From Acidobacteriota bacterium (GTDB taxonomy: Bacteria; Acidobacteriota; Terriglobia; Terriglobales; Acidobacteriaceae): a stretch of DNA of 64,000 nucleotides. This document shows positions 6,729 to 30,963 of the stretch, in pieces (the first letter of the stretch is position 1; each line of letters begins with the position of its first letter). A model generated the notes under the pieces. That model had not been told where the DNA came from. It was given only the letters and a program-made list of their open reading frames with translations, and searched no databases. The stretch covers positions 62,001-126,000 of the forward strand of contig QIBA01000066.1 in assembly GCA_003225175.1 (NCBI GenBank). Reading direction: 5' to 3'. The translations under genes and the position numbers were made by a program.

Positions 6729-8825
6729 ATGCACAACGACGATTCCCAATTCAGGACGATGGCCCGCGGGGGCGCGATCTTTCTCGTCCTTCTAGGCACC
6801 ACGGTTCTCCTAGGCTGGTTTTTCGATAGTAGCTTTCTTAAAACTCTTCTTCCGGGCCAAGTAACCATGAAGGCGAACACCGCGATTGGCTTCATTTGCG
6901 GTGGAGTTGCGCTGGCCTTCTTATTGCGTTCCGAATCATCGCGCAAGCTCCGTTGCCTTGCATCGCTCGCGTCTGTGCTGACGCTCGTGATCGGCATTTT
7001 CACGCTAATCGAATACTTGTTCCATCGTGATCTCAAGATCGACCAGTTGTGTTTTATCGATCGGGCCGAAGCCATCTGTCCGGGCCGGATTTCTCACGTC
7101 ACGGCACTGGATTTCTTCGTTGTAGGTGCGGCACTGCTTCTGCTCACTCGCGGAAAACGAGCGATCAAGATAGCGCAGCTGCTGGCTGCATTTGTAGGAC
7201 TGAGCGCCCTTCTGGCGATTATTGGATATCTCTATGGAGTACCGTTCTTGTACGGGTCTTCACACTATGCATCGATGGGCTTACACACGGGCTTAGGCTT
7301 TTTCATACTATCGATTTCGATTCTGGTCCACAGTCCTCATGAAGGATTCATGGCAGTGCTCGCAACACCGCGTCCGGCTGGATGGCTGGCCCGTAAGCTG
7401 TTACTGGCTGCCATAATCTTTCCCTGCGTTCTTGGGTTCGTCGCGATCCACGCTTTCACCGTCGTTGGCGATATGCGGTTCATGGTCGCTGCGCTGGTAA
7501 TCGCTCAAATTGTCCTTTTTGCCGGGTTGATTTGGATTTCCGCATCACGGCTGGATCGATCAGAAGCTGAAGAAGAGGTCGCGAAAGAGGCATTGGCAGC
7601 TTCCGAGCGCATGCTGCAACAGTCCCAGAAGATGGAGGCTATCGGGCTGCTCGCAGGCGGCGTGGCCCACGACTTCAACAATCTCTTAAACGTTATTGTT
7701 GGATACGGCGAACTGCTGCTGACCGATCCTCAGCTCTCAGAGAGCCAGCGCCGCAAAATCGAAAAGATCAGAAAGGCCGGGGACACAGCCAGCGGACTTA
7801 CGCGTCAGCTGCTGGCCTTTGGGCGCAAGCAGGTACTCCAGCCAAAGCCACTCGATCTGAATCAGATCATCAGCAATCCGGACGGATTCATGCCGCGCCT
7901 CATCAAGGAAGATATTTCCTTTTCGATGTCACTCTATCCGGGTCTGATGTCGATCATGGCGGATCCGGTGCAAGTCGAGCAGATCCTGCTGAATTTGGTG
8001 ATCAACGCCTGCGACTCCATGCCAAATGGAGGCAAGCTCAACATCGAAACCGAGAACGTTGTGATCGAGCAGGCACAAGCTCCCAAGTTCGGAGTTGCGC
8101 CAGGGCCGTTCGTTCGGTTGACGATCACGGATACGGGAACGGGAATGGATGATGAAACCCGCGCTCACATCTTCGAACCCTTTTATACGACCAAAGCTGC
8201 CGGCAAGGGCACGGGATTAGGATTGGCAACGGTTTACGGCATTATTAAGCAGAGCGGCGGATATATTGAAGTGGACAGCAAGCTGGGCCGTGGGACGAGT
8301 TTCCAAATCTATCTGCCTGCCACAAGGCTGGTCAGTTCGCAGGAGTTGGCGAAGCCCAGCATTGTCCCGAGCGCTGACGGAGCCACGATCCTCGTAGTCG
8401 AAGACTCCGAACCATTGCGAGACCTGATCTTCGAGACGCTCGAGACCATGGGTTATACCGCTCTCCTGGCGCAGGATGGTCACCAGGCAATCCGCATTTG
8501 TATGCAATTCACAGGGCCGATTGATCTGCTTTTGACCGACGTCATGATGCCCAAGATGAAGGGCCCGGAGGTGATGAAGCGAGTCAAGCAGATGCGTCCC
8601 GACATTGGCGTGCTCTTTATGTCGGGATACACGAACGATGTAACTGTACGTCAGGGCATTTCCAATGCAGACGTATCTTTCATCCAGAAGCCTTTCAGCT
8701 CAACAGAGCTGACCCACAAGCTGCGCGAAGCACTTGCGCGCGCTCACGACCGCAGCACCCTTCGCCAGCGCCTGGGGATGGAAATGGAACGGCGCGCCGC
8801 CTCTTTGCGAGCCGAGAACTCCTAA
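6729..8825 (+). CDS. Hybrid sensor histidine kinase with membrane sensor and C-terminal receiver
   Basis: 698 residues. The first ~270 residues hold about eight hydrophobic segments, resembling membrane-integral MASE-type sensors, with no separate periplasmic domain. A short coiled stretch (EAEEEVAKEAL...) leads to a HisKA domain with GVAHDFNNLL, phospho-acceptor His314. The HATPase domain carries an N box (VINACDSMPNGG) and G boxes (DTGTGMD, GKGTGLGLA). The C-terminal receiver (about 550-670) has an acidic pair in LVVEDSE, phospho-acceptor Asp604 in LLTDVMMP and the conserved Lys in QKPF. All catalytic residues are present. A lone receiver protein follows 138 bp downstream and may be its partner. 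The signal sensed is unknown. Confidence 0.9.
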   Translation: MHNDDSQFRTMARGGAIFLVLLGTTVLLGWFFDSSFLKTLLPGQVTMKANTAIGFICGGVALAFLLRSESSRKLRCLASLASVLTLVIGIFTLIEYLFHRDLKIDQLCFIDRAEAICPGRISHVTALDFFVVGAALLLLTRGKRAIKIAQLLAAFVGLSALLAIIGYLYGVPFLYGSSHYASMGLHTGLGFFILSISILVHSPHEGFMAVLATPRPAGWLARKLLLAAIIFPCVLGFVAIHAFTVVGDMRFMVAALVIAQIVLFAGLIWISASRLDRSEAEEEVAKEALAASERMLQQSQKMEAIGLLAGGVAHDFNNLLNVIVGYGELLLTDPQLSESQRRKIEKIRKAGDTASGLTRQLLAFGRKQVLQPKPLDLNQIISNPDGFMPRLIKEDISFSMSLYPGLMSIMADPVQVEQILLNLVINACDSMPNGGKLNIETENVVIEQAQAPKFGVAPGPFVRLTITDTGTGMDDETRAHIFEPFYTTKAAGKGTGLGLATVYGIIKQSGGYIEVDSKLGRGTSFQIYLPATRLVSSQELAKPSIVPSADGATILVVEDSEPLRDLIFETLETMGYTALLAQDGHQAIRICMQFTGPIDLLLTDVMMPKMKGPEVMKRVKQMRPDIGVLFMSGYTNDVTVRQGISNADVSFIQKPFSSTELTHKLREALARAHDRSTLRQRLGMEMERRAASLRAENS

Positions 8826-17881: not shown

Positions 17882-19273
17882 GTGGACCAGAAGTTAACAC
17901 TCATCACTCTGCTCATCAGGCTTGGCGTAGTCGCCGCCATTGCCAGCGCAGTAGTTCGTTCGCGTTACTTCAAGTCCATTCTGTTTCGCAATGAGATTCG
18001 GAGTACGCGGCAGCAGATTCAGATCGTTTTATTCGTGGGCGTTCCGGTCGCTCTTGGTGTGTGGGTACGAGCAACAGTGCCGAGCTTCTCTGCCGCGGAC
18101 GTCGCATTCGAGAGCGCAATCATCGTTGGCGTGATGGGTGGCCGCCTCGCGGGTGTCGCACTGGCTGCACTGTGCGCGATTCCGGAATTATGGCGGCATG
18201 AATTCCTCGGTTTCCCACTGGATGCGCTCGCCGGGTATGTTGCCGGCGCATTTCGTGAATACGCTGCCAATCGGGAAGACATCTGGTCGTTCTCTCCGAT
18301 GGTCGATCTCAGCGTCTACCGCTGGATTCGCCGCAATTTTCCGCGTCCGCGACACGACTGGCAGGTGGCTTTCTTCGTTGGAATTCTGCTCCTGCAGTTT
18401 CTTCGCGAGCAGATTGGGCGAGCATTTCCCGGTCGAGTGTTCTTCTTGCGCGGAGACACTTTTTGGGTGGAAGTCGCAGTCTACGCTGGCACGATCGCTG
18501 CCGTCGCGATTCCGATCAAAATCTGGAATGCGACGCGCATTGAACTCAAGCTGGAAGAACAGGAACGGCTACTGTTGCAGGCTCGCCTGGACGCGCTGCA
18601 AAGCCAGATCAACCCCCATTTTCTTTTCAATACCTTGAACTCAATCTCCTCTCTCGTGCGTGTTCGCCCAGAGCAGGCGCGAGACTTGATTGTGAAGCTC
18701 GCCAACATACTGCGTTCGCTGCTCAGGAAACATGACGCATTTGTCCTGCTGCGGGAGGAGATGGAGTTCATCGACAACTATCTCGACATCGAAGTCGCCC
18801 GTTTTGGTCCGGAAAAGCTGCAGGTCGTGAAGGACCTCGACTCTCAAACCCTTGATGTGATTGTTCCCAGCATGGTGCTGCAACCAATCGTCGAGAATGC
18901 CATCAAGCACGGTCTTGCGCCGAAGATCGAGGGCGGCAAGATCATCGTTCGGAGTCGATTGCAGTCTGAACATCACCTTCGTATCGATATCGAAGACGAT
19001 GGTGTGGGAATGGCCTCGGTCAACGGCCGTTTCGGTGAGCGTCGCCGGTATACGCGCGACGATAACGATGGAACTCAGCTGCACACCGAAGGAATCGGCA
19101 TGCACAACGTGGCCGAGCGCCTGCGAGTGCTCTATGGCGCTAACGCACACATGGCTGTTCAGAGCAGTCCCGGAAGAGGAACGCGGATTTCAATCGAACT
19201 GCCCCTATTACAGACGGATAAGGAGTCTTCGGCAGCATCGGCGATTTACGAGGCTCGCTCCAGTATGCGCTGA
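17882..19273 (+). CDS. LytS/YehU-type sensor histidine kinase
   Basis: 463 residues from a GTG start. The N-terminal ~210 residues form several membrane segments of the LytS sensor kind (VGVMGGRLAGVALAAL). A short coil (LEEQERLLLQARLDAL) leads into the His_kinase domain with QINPHFLFNTLNSI (phospho-acceptor His246), then a HATPase domain (ENAIKHGLAPK, DDGVGM, GIGMHNVAERL). This class usually pairs with a LytR/AlgR-type DNA-binding regulator. None is adjacent, so it is an orphan here. Its last 28 bases overlap the 3' end of the convergent bshA gene. Confidence 0.9.
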   Translation: MDQKLTLITLLIRLGVVAAIASAVVRSRYFKSILFRNEIRSTRQQIQIVLFVGVPVALGVWVRATVPSFSAADVAFESAIIVGVMGGRLAGVALAALCAIPELWRHEFLGFPLDALAGYVAGAFREYAANREDIWSFSPMVDLSVYRWIRRNFPRPRHDWQVAFFVGILLLQFLREQIGRAFPGRVFFLRGDTFWVEVAVYAGTIAAVAIPIKIWNATRIELKLEEQERLLLQARLDALQSQINPHFLFNTLNSISSLVRVRPEQARDLIVKLANILRSLLRKHDAFVLLREEMEFIDNYLDIEVARFGPEKLQVVKDLDSQTLDVIVPSMVLQPIVENAIKHGLAPKIEGGKIIVRSRLQSEHHLRIDIEDDGVGMASVNGRFGERRRYTRDDNDGTQLHTEGIGMHNVAERLRVLYGANAHMAVQSSPGRGTRISIELPLLQTDKESSAASAIYEARSSMR

Positions 19274-28207: not shown

Positions 28208-28385
28208 TACGAATAAAGGTCTCCTGCCGGATTTCATCCGATAAACCTCTTTGCTTCCATACAGACGTGCGGTTACTTCAGAACGTGTGAATGTTGAGTT
28301 TTCCTGGCGAATCTGAAAGCAGTGGATTTACCCTTTGTTAACTCTGTGAAAGAATGCCTTCTCACATCCCCCGAAAGTCTGCAGA

Positions 28386-29618
28386 ATGATTAAAGCTCTT
28401 CTGATCGAAGAAGACGCCGAGTCTCGGGCTGTCGCGGAGCGCGCTTTTGCCAAGGCCGACATGAGCGTGGCGAGCGCTGTGGACTATCAATCCGGTTATG
28501 AGCTCCTGCGCACGGAAAAGCCGGGCGCAGTTGTCATCGGCGTAAGTGTTCCCGATCTTCACGGCTACGATCTCTGTCAGGAGATTCGCCGTGATCCCGC
28601 GACACGCGATGTGCCTATTGTTATCTGCTCCGCACAGAGCTATCCGGCAGACATTCGTCGCGCTAAGGAATTCGGGGCCGATGAGTACGTCATAAAGCCT
28701 TACGCCGAGCAGCAGCTCGTAGACGCAGTATGGAATGCAATTGAGTTACGAAGCACCGTCTTCCGCGTGAAGTTCTGGGGTACTCGCGGATCCATTGCCA
28801 CGCCTGGTCCGGAGACGATTCGTTATGGCGGTAATACGTCATGTGTGGAGGTTCGCTGCGGAGAAGACATCCTCATCTTTGACTGCGGCACTGGTGTGCG
28901 CGAACTGGGAATCGCGCTGGCGAAGGAATATGCGGAGCGTAGTCTCGAAGTGCATCTGTTCGTAAGCCACACTCACTGGGACCACATCCAGGGATTTCCG
29001 TTTTTTCAACCCGCGTATCGCGCCGGCAATCGCGTGAACATCTACAGCCTGCACAGTCCTGACCGCAGCCTCGAAAGACTTTTCACCGGACAAATGGACG
29101 GTAACTACTTTCCGGTCACCCTGGATGACTTAATGGCGCGTCTCCACTTCGAAGAACTATCCGGTGACGTGAACATCGGCGACGTGAAGATCTCGCACAT
29201 GCATTTGAACCATCCCGGACTCTCGCTCTCATTCCGCATAGAATCGAAGGGCCGTGCTGTGGTTTACATGACGGATCACGAGCCCTATCACAAACTGCTC
29301 GGTGAAAGTTCGCATACGAGAAAGCTCGACGCAGAGATTGATGCCTTCGCAAAGGACTCTGACCTGCTGATTCGAGAGGCGCAATACACTGACGAGGAGT
29401 ACGTCATCAAGCGCGGCTGGGGACACAGCACGACTACTGACGCCGCTTTCTCGGCTATGAACTCCGAAGCCAAACGCCTGGTGCTGTTTCACCACGATCC
29501 GATGCACGACGATCAACAAGTCGACTCGATGGTCGAGTCCTGCCGCAACAAGATCAAAGAGAACGGCAAGCAGATCAGCGTCATGGGCGCAGCTGACAAG
29601 CTCACTTTACGAATCTGA
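28386..29618 (+). CDS. Degenerate receiver domain fused to metallo-beta-lactamase-fold hydrolase
   Basis: 410 residues. Residues 1-120 form a response-regulator receiver: acidic EED at 8-10, PDLHGYDLC after the active-site loop, and the conserved Lys104 in YVIKPYA. The phospho-acceptor Asp is replaced by Gly52 (VVIGVSVPD where DVxxP is expected). Residues 127-400 are an MBL-fold domain with WGTRGSIATPG, FDCGTGVRELG and the metal motif HTHWDH (195-200), then HLNHPG, MTDHEPY and a late LFHHDPMHDD. This is closest in style to RNase Z/class II phosphodiesterase-like MBL proteins seen in two-component contexts. Predicted role: a hydrolase (nucleotide, RNA or lipid) controlled by protein contact rather than phosphorylation. 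It stands alone, followed by another receiver-like gene. Confidence 0.88.
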   Translation: MIKALLIEEDAESRAVAERAFAKADMSVASAVDYQSGYELLRTEKPGAVVIGVSVPDLHGYDLCQEIRRDPATRDVPIVICSAQSYPADIRRAKEFGADEYVIKPYAEQQLVDAVWNAIELRSTVFRVKFWGTRGSIATPGPETIRYGGNTSCVEVRCGEDILIFDCGTGVRELGIALAKEYAERSLEVHLFVSHTHWDHIQGFPFFQPAYRAGNRVNIYSLHSPDRSLERLFTGQMDGNYFPVTLDDLMARLHFEELSGDVNIGDVKISHMHLNHPGLSLSFRIESKGRAVVYMTDHEPYHKLLGESSHTRKLDAEIDAFAKDSDLLIREAQYTDEEYVIKRGWGHSTTTDAAFSAMNSEAKRLVLFHHDPMHDDQQVDSMVESCRNKIKENGKQISVMGAADKLTLRI

Positions 29619-29702: not shown

Positions 29703-29731
29703 TTGACACCTTCAAGTGCTACATTGAGAAT
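29703..29731 (+). promoter_or_regulatory. Candidate sigma-70 promoter for the small receiver-like gene
   Basis: A perfect -35 box TTGACA (29703-29708) is followed, after 17 bp, by GAGAAT (29726-29731), matching the -10 box at 4 of 6 positions. It lies about 65 bp upstream of the gene starting at 29797 and after the stop of the receiver-MBL gene, so the small gene likely has its own promoter. Confidence 0.5.
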
Positions 29732-29796: not shown

Positions 29797-30147
29797 ATGG
29801 AATGGCTCGGCCCCGATATTGTCGCCAAATACGAAAGCTCACGCTGGCCGGTGTTGCTTTCCGTTTGCCCTAACCTCGATCGCATGGAGAGCCGCGAACA
29901 TGCTCTGCTTGCCGCCGGCTATGTAGTGGCCTCAGCCAGCACACTGATAGCCGCCAAGGAGATGACCCAACTTTGTAAGTTCGACATTGTCCTGCTCGAT
30001 CACGAGTGCGCCTCCGACGATCGAGCGAAGAATCTGCAACAACATCACGTAAGCGTCCTGCTCGAATCTGGAACTACAGAGTGCCAATTACTGATTCACC
30101 TGAGTCAGTTACTGGAAGTTGCCAGCGCGTCTGCCGCCGTTCATTGA
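29797..30147 (+). CDS. Small receiver-like (pseudo-receiver) protein
   Basis: 116 residues; an AGGAG ribosome site lies a suitable distance before the ATG. The fold pattern is receiver-like: VLLSVCPNLDRMESREHALLAAGYVV (strand 1, helix 1), a second strand region, and FDIVLLDHE with Asp68 where the phospho-acceptor would be. The acidic pair of strand 1 is missing (SVCPN instead of DDD) and the conserved Lys is not seen, so phosphorylation is doubtful. Similar short proteins are scattered in acidobacterial genomes. It directly follows the receiver-MBL fusion. Confidence 0.6.
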   Translation: MEWLGPDIVAKYESSRWPVLLSVCPNLDRMESREHALLAAGYVVASASTLIAAKEMTQLCKFDIVLLDHECASDDRAKNLQQHHVSVLLESGTTECQLLIHLSQLLEVASASAAVH

Positions 30148-30449: not shown

Positions 30450-30963
30450 ATGCGCTTTCAGCAGAGTCTGCTTTTCCTACTCGCCATCACTGTTTTCGCC
30501 TTCGCGCAAAATAAGAACCTTCTACCGTTAGCCGAGCGGCTCGCGGCGCAGAATGCTCTCTTCGACGAGCAGTACGAATCCGATCTTCGCGAATTTCCTG
30601 AGCGGGCCACTTCTGTTGGCGACTATCGCTACAACGACAAGCTTGCCGACCGGTCGCTCGCCGCAATGATGCGCCGCGAGACGGTCGATGAAGGGTTCCT
30701 GAAACGGCTGGAGGCGATCTCGACCGCCGGCTTTTCCGACCAGGACCAGCTTTCCCACGACGTCATGGAGCGCGGCTTACAGCAGCGCATTGCCGACTTC
30801 GAGCTCAAGGAGTACGAGATGCCCATCAGCCAGTTCGGCGGCGCAAACCTTCGTCTCCGATCTCCCGCTCTCCATAACTCTCGATTCCGTTCAGCGTTAT
30901 GGAAAACGGAGAAGCGTGGACCATGCCCCGCGTGAGCGCCGCGTCTCGGAAGTTCCACAATGA
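30450..30963 (+). pseudogene. DUF885-family secreted protein remnant, frameshifted and truncated
   Basis: A signal peptide (LLFLLAITVFAFAQ) is followed by the DUF885 N-terminus: FPERATSVGDYRYND, LSHDVMERGLQQRI and EYEMPISQFGG. Intact family members run to about 580-620 residues. Here, after QFGG the family text continues only in the next frame (AAQTFVSDLPLSITLDSV), so a frameshift lies between about 30838 and 30860. The shifted frame then ends at 30963. No further DUF885 sequence is seen. This is a decayed gene; the family is thought to contain metalloprotease-like proteins, but the metal motif is lost. Confidence 0.75.

Follow-up and report, generated by a model that had tools for sequence, protein, structure and literature searches.

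A gene in which a response-regulator receiver domain lacking its phospho-acceptor aspartate is joined to a hydrolase of the metallo-beta-lactamase (MBL) fold was found in an Acidobacteriota bacterium of the family Acidobacteriaceae, on a 64,000-nucleotide stretch (hereafter the window) of contig QIBA01000066.1. The acceptor position of the receiver is occupied by glycine (Gly52), and the same residue is found in every orthologue from the same genus, whereas nearly all relatives with this domain order outside the genus have Asp. We consider it fairly probable that, in this genus, a response regulator controlling a phosphodiesterase (PDE) came to work without phosphate, its receiver being retained as a structural, dimerising or protein-binding module. 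The initial annotation of the window had described a receiver without phosphorylatable Asp joined to an RNase Z/phosphodiesterase-like enzyme, and both Gly52 and a complete metal site support this description.

The fusion gene and its receiver domain

The fusion gene occupies positions 28386-29618 of the plus strand as an uninterrupted open reading frame (ORF) of 410 residues. Its N-terminal receiver domain (residues 1-118; 28386-28739, plus strand) was delimited by a PF00072 match (residues 5-115, E 1.3e-20, 74.1 bits versus a curated cut-off of 30.2) and an AlphaFold model, and the C-terminal RNase Z-like hydrolase domain (residues 126-410; 28761-29615, plus strand) contains a PF12706 match above its curated cut-off (residues 164-370, E 2.5e-16). 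The model was built with a 62-row alignment of fusion proteins, comprising four rows from the genus and 58 from elsewhere, and shows the five strands of a receiver ahead of an MBL-type fold (mean predicted local distance difference test score, pLDDT, of 91.5 for the whole protein; predicted template-modelling score, pTM, of 0.80). Upstream of the gene, a block containing the promoter-like sequence TTTACC-N17-AAGAAT (28327-28355, plus strand) is common to four genomes, with TTTACG as the first hexamer in genus genome G002. This sequence was picked out by eye from the four-genome alignment and was not listed by a consensus promoter scan; the conserved block suggests that the fusion may have its own promoter.

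Alignment with the relatives places Gly52 (codon GGC, 28539-28541, plus strand) on the phospho-acceptor position, as the initial annotation had stated, and Lys104 is kept, as it had also stated, together with Ser82 and Tyr101. The same annotation had regarded the acidic pocket as kept. Both positions of the acidic pair are indeed acidic (Glu8-Glu9), but at position 9 (28410-28412, plus strand) 56 of the 58 non-genus rows have Asp, Glu being confined to the four genus rows, which means that the pocket is not fully preserved. In receivers, the second acidic residue binds the metal directly (PMC12632262). Exactly four receiver positions were found to be both fixed in the four genus rows and unusual for the family, namely D9E, D52G, L53V and M55V, when the genus residue was allowed in at most 5% of the 58 other rows and another residue was required in at least 60% of them. 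Two of these positions, 53 and 55, are neighbours of the acceptor position. The same criterion applied to the hydrolase domain at a 75% threshold returned positions 182, 282, 405 and 410, none of which is a metal ligand. The acceptor Asp that marks the receiver of a response regulator is thus replaced in the window gene, whose receiver very probably cannot be phosphorylated on Asp.

A receiver without Asp is not rare in itself, since 10 of the 86 receivers above the Pfam cut-off in the window's genome, the window's included, have no acceptor Asp, and about 4% of receivers lack it in the literature, with Gly making up 11% of the replacements (PMC4395418). A further estimate, made on a representative set of bacteria, puts the share of pseudo-receivers at about 6% (PMC12632262). 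However, the window receiver is the only one of these 10 that has both acidic positions together with Ser/Thr and Lys (in one of the others, L261, the match does not reach the Lys position, where inspection by eye gives Arg).

The acceptor residue across the hydrolase family

Relatives were counted when the receiver lies in front of the hydrolase in a single ORF; they comprise 55 of the 80 loci from one search plus loci from additional genomes of the genus and class. Among the resulting 64 fusion rows, L140 and L142 carry fusions identical to those of L038 (Candidatus Acidiferrales) and L060 (Acidobacteria) and were not counted, and the set called non-identical still includes close pairs. One further relative (L043), which has X at the acidic positions, was left out of the alignment while its Asp was counted. 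In the first set of 60 relatives, the acceptor position was Asp in 56, Gly in 3 (all from the genus) and Glu in 1 (L013), and four later additions were all Asp; the 62 non-identical relatives comprise 58 with Asp, 3 with Gly and 1 with Glu. Outside the genus, Asp is present in 58 of the 59 non-identical N-terminal fusions and Glu in the remaining one, which rules out Gly as a trait of N-terminal fusions generally. Moreover, at nine loci the receiver is encoded by an ORF of its own immediately upstream, which abuts or overlaps the hydrolase, and all nine have Asp.

Because Gly is conserved only in the genus and Asp is found elsewhere, the replacement is a lineage change and no general property of the fusion. 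The initial annotation had suggested checking whether Gly is conserved in homologues, which it is in the genus (3/3) and not in the family; likewise, the retention of Asp, which it had named as a refutation, applies to the family at large and not to the close orthologues of the genus. A quick, unrooted tree built from 113 rows of the hydrolase domain gathers the four Gly genes in a single starred group, with two Asp-type genes, L038 and L141, as its nearest neighbours.

The other 25 of the 80 loci comprise the nine with upstream-ORF receivers, 12 with C-terminal receivers and four whose hydrolase ORF yielded no receiver. Together with L014 and L015, 14 C-terminal receivers were available, and their acceptor position is Asp in nine, Glu in three, Gly in one (L109) and a gap in one. 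Eleven of the 14 have no complete acidic pair, and degraded receivers of this kind are carried by the related hydrolases at L084, L090, L092, L100, L101, L103, L107, L109, L112, L113 and L014. Since the C-terminal arrangement also contains degraded receivers, phosphate-free receivers have emerged on this hydrolase under at least two arrangements. Such recurrent decay may mean that the hydrolase is suited to phosphate-free control, or that its receiver is dispensable; it is also a reason not to describe the family as a whole as ordinary response regulators.

Several individual relatives deserve mention. The fusion L013:1492-2832, from the same class, carries Glu in place of the acceptor and is a natural contrast to the Gly type; Glu at this position can mimic phosphorylation in some receivers (PMC4395418). 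In G006, which belongs to another genus of the same family, a degraded receiver with a Gly acceptor (L024:1012-1380, minus strand) directly follows a receiver-free hydrolase. The fusions at L071, L085 and L105 have hydrolase domains that are 87-91% identical, and the records that contain them bear the titles Akkermansia muciniphila and Klebsiella pneumoniae; these fusions cluster together among Verrucomicrobia-titled rows, and at least the Klebsiella title of these metagenome bins is probably wrong.

Fixation of Gly52 within the genus

Six genomes of the genus were examined, and the fusion was found in four of them, including that of the window; it was not found in G003 (97% complete) and G005 (83% complete). 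The three other orthologues are 92, 91 and 81% identical to the window protein over its whole length, and all have Gly at position 52. The codons are GGC in the window, GGA in G004, GGC in G001 and GGG in G002. Gly in three other genomes and three different glycine codons exclude a recent mutation at position 52 and also a sequence error, which had been named in the initial annotation as a possible source of the Gly; a pseudogene is likewise excluded. For the receiver, the ratio of nonsynonymous to synonymous substitution rates (dN/dS) is 0.029-0.060 in four of the six genus pairs (the other two pairs were not computable), values that are rough because synonymous sites are near saturation in these comparisons. 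The retention of Gly through codon changes, combined with low dN/dS, indicates that the receiver domain is under purifying selection.

These data also bear on a different explanation, in which the receiver is a decaying leftover, kept only because its loss would unfold the protein, with the hydrolase being constitutive and no signal passing through the receiver. Both D52G and D9E strike the phosphorylation site, as such decay would predict. In addition, the receivers of Gly-clade pairs involving G002 are 71-73% identical at an MBL identity of 84-85%, while those of Asp-type pairs are 76-91% identical at an MBL identity of 82-87%. In two of the six genus genomes the fusion was not found, and C-terminal receivers on related hydrolases are frequently degraded; both observations point in the same direction. 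However, Ser82, Tyr101 and Lys104 are retained, dN/dS is low where computable, Gly has been maintained through codon changes, and no other Asp-less receiver in the genome combines the full acidic pair with Ser/Thr and Lys. On balance we regard a mere leftover as rather unlikely, though it deserves to be taken seriously. It differs from a conversion to phosphate-free operation only in whether the receiver carries a signal.

Identity of the hydrolase

The complete HTHWDH metal motif reported in the initial annotation was confirmed (residues 195-200; 28968-28985, plus strand) and is invariant in all 62 rows. The metal site is completed by His276, Asp297 and His370; the seven ligand positions (195, 197, 199, 200, 276, 297 and 370), which we assigned from RNase Z motifs, are kept in 62 of 62 rows, with one gap at position 370. 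Position 331 is acidic in every row. A GHST loop common to RNase Z (residues 346-349; 29421-29432, plus strand) aligns to the HST of that enzyme, and its His347 is present in 61 of the 62 rows. The matches of a Foldseek search among solved structures included RNase Z, a B. anthracis ELAC homologue, YhfI, human ELAC1, PNGM-1, PhnP and Apyc1, the best match being RNase Z 1y44 (template-modelling score, TM, of 0.77 by target length). The RNase Z/phosphodiesterase-like fold assigned earlier is therefore supported by PF12706, the intact metal site and the fold matches.

Receiver-controlled tRNA processing would be one way to read the resemblance to RNase Z, but several results speak against it and we hold it to be highly improbable. 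The RNase Z model TIGR02651 scored only 67.5 bits versus a cut-off of 292.95, and a receiver-free paralogue in the same genome (contig C125) scores higher on the same model. Between the two matched segments, the fusion is about 33 residues shorter than RNase Z 1y44. The tRNA-binding arm of RNase Z would be expected in this interval. Furthermore, a match at E 1e-30 is missing from 29 of 61 relatives.

As the substrate, our best guess is a small nucleotide phosphodiester. The SHTHWDH of the window protein agrees with [T/S]HXHXDH, the signature by which the atypical class-II PDEs, YhfI among them, are described (PMC9293780), with position 194 being T/S in 46 and G in 16 of the 62 rows, and YhfI prefers cyclic AMP and cyclic GMP (PMC9117128). 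Three PF00211 cyclase matches above the cut-off in the window's genome make cyclic nucleotides plausible substrates. The cyclic-nucleotide phosphodiesterase model NF041851 (NCBIfam) scored 47.7 bits versus a cut-off of 400.

Distribution, kinases and gene context

Up to 30 candidates per genome were scored in the genus and family search, and the best four per genome in the class and phylum searches. At E 1e-30, the full-length fusion was found in 0 of 31 same-family genomes outside the genus, and the hydrolase part had a match in 19 of them. Among 399 genomes in the class search, eight, including the window's, had a match at E 1e-85, and the phylum search at the same threshold gave no match beyond the window's own genome.

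A kinase-type gene lies directly upstream of the fusion on the same strand at three loci (L063, L072 and L104), all of which are Asp-type. The kinase at L104 is a full hybrid kinase, while those at L063 and L072 show the ATPase domain only. The window contains kinases at 6729-8825 and 17882-19273, the closer of which is about 9 kb upstream of the fusion, and no histidine kinase gene was found within the approximately 9 kb upstream of the window fusion.

The gene order in the genus is bactofilin, methyltransferase, aminotransferase (missing in G002), fusion and small protein. When 20 genes of the window locus were searched by tblastn (E 1e-6) against the 64 fusion loci plus L137 and L138, many of which have short flanks, only genus loci were matched, and a family-wide conserved operon was not found.

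A different context was observed in a sister group of the same class, where an ATPase gene encoding MshEN, T2SSE, zinc-ribbon and C-terminal receiver domains comes right after the fusion (L060:6247-8652 and L137:8104-10596). An MshEN-T2SSE ATPase is next to the fusion in three genomes of this group (L060, L012/L137 and L143), and the receiver is present in the two complete copies, that of L143 running off its stretch. MshEN is a binding domain for cyclic di-guanosine monophosphate (c-di-GMP), and this adjacency hints at a link of the hydrolase to pilus or secretion control. In the window, only one distant partial match to this ATPase was found (1030-1470, 44% over 150 columns); none was found in L038, and two long homologues in the window's genome have open frames of 582 and 545 residues. 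Because the match is distant and partial and the homologues are too short for a receiver, this context was set aside for the window gene.

The neighbouring 116-residue protein

The gene downstream of the fusion (29797-30147, plus strand) encodes a truncated receiver-like protein of 116 residues, which had been proposed as a degenerate receiver and as a candidate partner of the fusion. The first proposal holds in part. The protein has a receiver-like, truncated predicted fold, yet there is no Pfam match up to E 1, PF00072 included. When a nine-row alignment of the protein was compared with the receiver profile, the match covered the first half of that profile (hhalign probability 84%) and placed Asp68 on the acceptor position and Cys24-Pro25 on the acidic-pair positions. 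The predicted structure, with a mean pLDDT of 82, contains four strands; the final strand-helix unit, which bears the Lys, is missing from it, and its best fold matches are receivers with modest scores, six of them with E up to 1e-3. The ORF that follows (30450-30935 of the window) aligns with DUF885 over no more than the first 96 of the model's 532 positions and looks cut short.

As for the second proposal, control of the fusion receiver by binding of this neighbour would agree with the receiver-like features of the small protein and with its adjacency to the fusion in all three testable genus genomes (in G004 the contig ends 138 bases past the fusion match). This adjacency is not distinctive within the genus, however, because the upstream genes are equally syntenic. 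The small protein was found only in the genus (6 of 61 genomes), where it is also present in G003 and G005, in which the fusion was not found; conversely, it has no match in G051 and G056, the two non-genus fusion genomes searched. In addition, a promoter-like sequence, TTGACA-N17-GAGAAT (29703-29731, plus strand), lies between the two genes and was detected by a consensus scan and a three-genome alignment. It is similar in the window, G001 and G002 (CAGAAT as the second hexamer in G002), and its weight rests on this conservation, since the scan between the genes gave one site against a shuffle mean of 1.0. Its conservation suggests that the fusion and the small gene are probably separate transcription units. 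The phyletic pattern led us to reject the neighbour as an obligate partner, with the promoter-like sequence as further evidence against it, and control by this protein seems very unlikely to us.

Probable conversion of a response regulator to phosphate-free operation

Taken together, the family would be one of response regulators with an RNase Z-fold output, probably a two-metal phosphodiesterase resembling the atypical class-II PDEs. Lineages that carry the receiver in front mostly have a complete phosphorylation site in it, and a kinase gene is adjacent in some. In the genus of the window, the phosphorylation pocket would have been remodelled by D9E, D52G, L53V and M55V and then fixed, and these four changes probably ended phospho-control. 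Phosphorylation on Asp would thereby be lost, while the receiver fold, the switch residues Ser82, Tyr101 and Lys104, and the hydrolase active site would stay under purifying selection. The phosphate-free receiver may hold the hydrolase in one state or let some other factor set its state, and control may run through the binding of some partner.

A more elaborate variant, which we treat as a remote speculation, takes the emptied pocket (the small Gly52, the longer Glu9, Ser82 and Lys104) to be a binding site for a small ligand or a partner side chain. The protein would then be a receiver-gated phosphodiesterase sensing a non-phosphate cue, possibly with the Asp-bearing truncated neighbour supplying the missing piece.

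Several points weigh against a conversion from phospho-control to phosphate-free operation. A kinase-type ATPase ORF was found in the available DNA of only 9 of the 64 fusion loci, many of which have short flanks and two of which repeat another locus. The Asp-to-Gly direction is taken from the spread of Asp because the tree is quick and unrooted, just four Gly-type fusions are known, and the dN/dS values are rough. The greater receiver divergence in the Gly clade would also suit partial relaxation, and the frequent decay of C-terminal receivers fits a dispensable receiver too. Finally, the substrate may be something else, because both curated enzyme models scored far under their cut-offs.

This one enzyme family offers a natural comparison, in which the same hydrolase occurs with Asp-type, Glu-type (L013), Gly-type and degraded C-terminal receivers, and its enzymatic output could be assayed directly in place of DNA binding. 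Judging from record titles, the family suggests two-component control of RNase Z-fold phosphodiesterases in Verrucomicrobia, Elusimicrobia and Acidobacteria, for which no description was found in the literature searched. The genus adds an aspartate-less receiver, at genus level, in a little-described architecture.

Comparison with known systems

With regard to its enzyme, the fusion shares the MBL fold and the two-metal site with the atypical class-II PDEs Rv1339, YhfI and C. glutamicum CpdA (PMC9293780) and with Apyc1 (PMC9117128). The motif of these enzymes ([T/S]HXHXDH or HxHxDH) is like that of the fusion, and YhfI and Apyc1 are among its fold matches; however, identity to these two at the fold level is just 14-19%, NF041851 failed, and, unlike the fusion, the atypical PDEs and Apyc1 are described with no mention of a receiver in the available parts of these two papers. 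RNase Z/ElaC resembles the fusion in providing the best fold match (1y44) and in the GHST loop, but differs in that its family model failed on the fusion, which is shorter between the matched segments and has a receiver fused to it. PorX likewise has a receiver joined to a zinc-dependent phosphodiesterase, whose enzyme domain belongs to the alkaline phosphatase superfamily and not to the MBL fold, and phosphorylation of PorX in vitro has been reported (PMC11320123).

With regard to its receiver, the fusion is similar to the aspartate-less receivers FrzS, RitR, ChxR and CmrT (PMC4395418, PMC12632262), in which the acceptor Asp of a PF00072 domain is likewise replaced. The first acidic position, the Lys and the Y/T pair are often kept in such receivers (PMC4395418, PMC12632262), but the second position is acidic in only 29% and both Y/T residues are present in 44.5% (PMC4395418), whereas the fusion keeps both acidic positions as well as Ser, Tyr and Lys. 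PMC4395418 notes that a characterised Gly member of known structure was not yet available when it was written, and the switching mechanism of receivers without a phospho-acceptor is an open question, called a mystery in PMC12632262. The output of the fusion is an MBL hydrolase, and the main texts of PMC4395418 and PMC12632262, to which this statement is confined, do not contain the word lactamase. A description of a receiver-MBL fusion was not recognised in the literature searched, though this does not prove that none has been published. Asp-less receivers are well known as a class, and their combination with an MBL output appears new to us.
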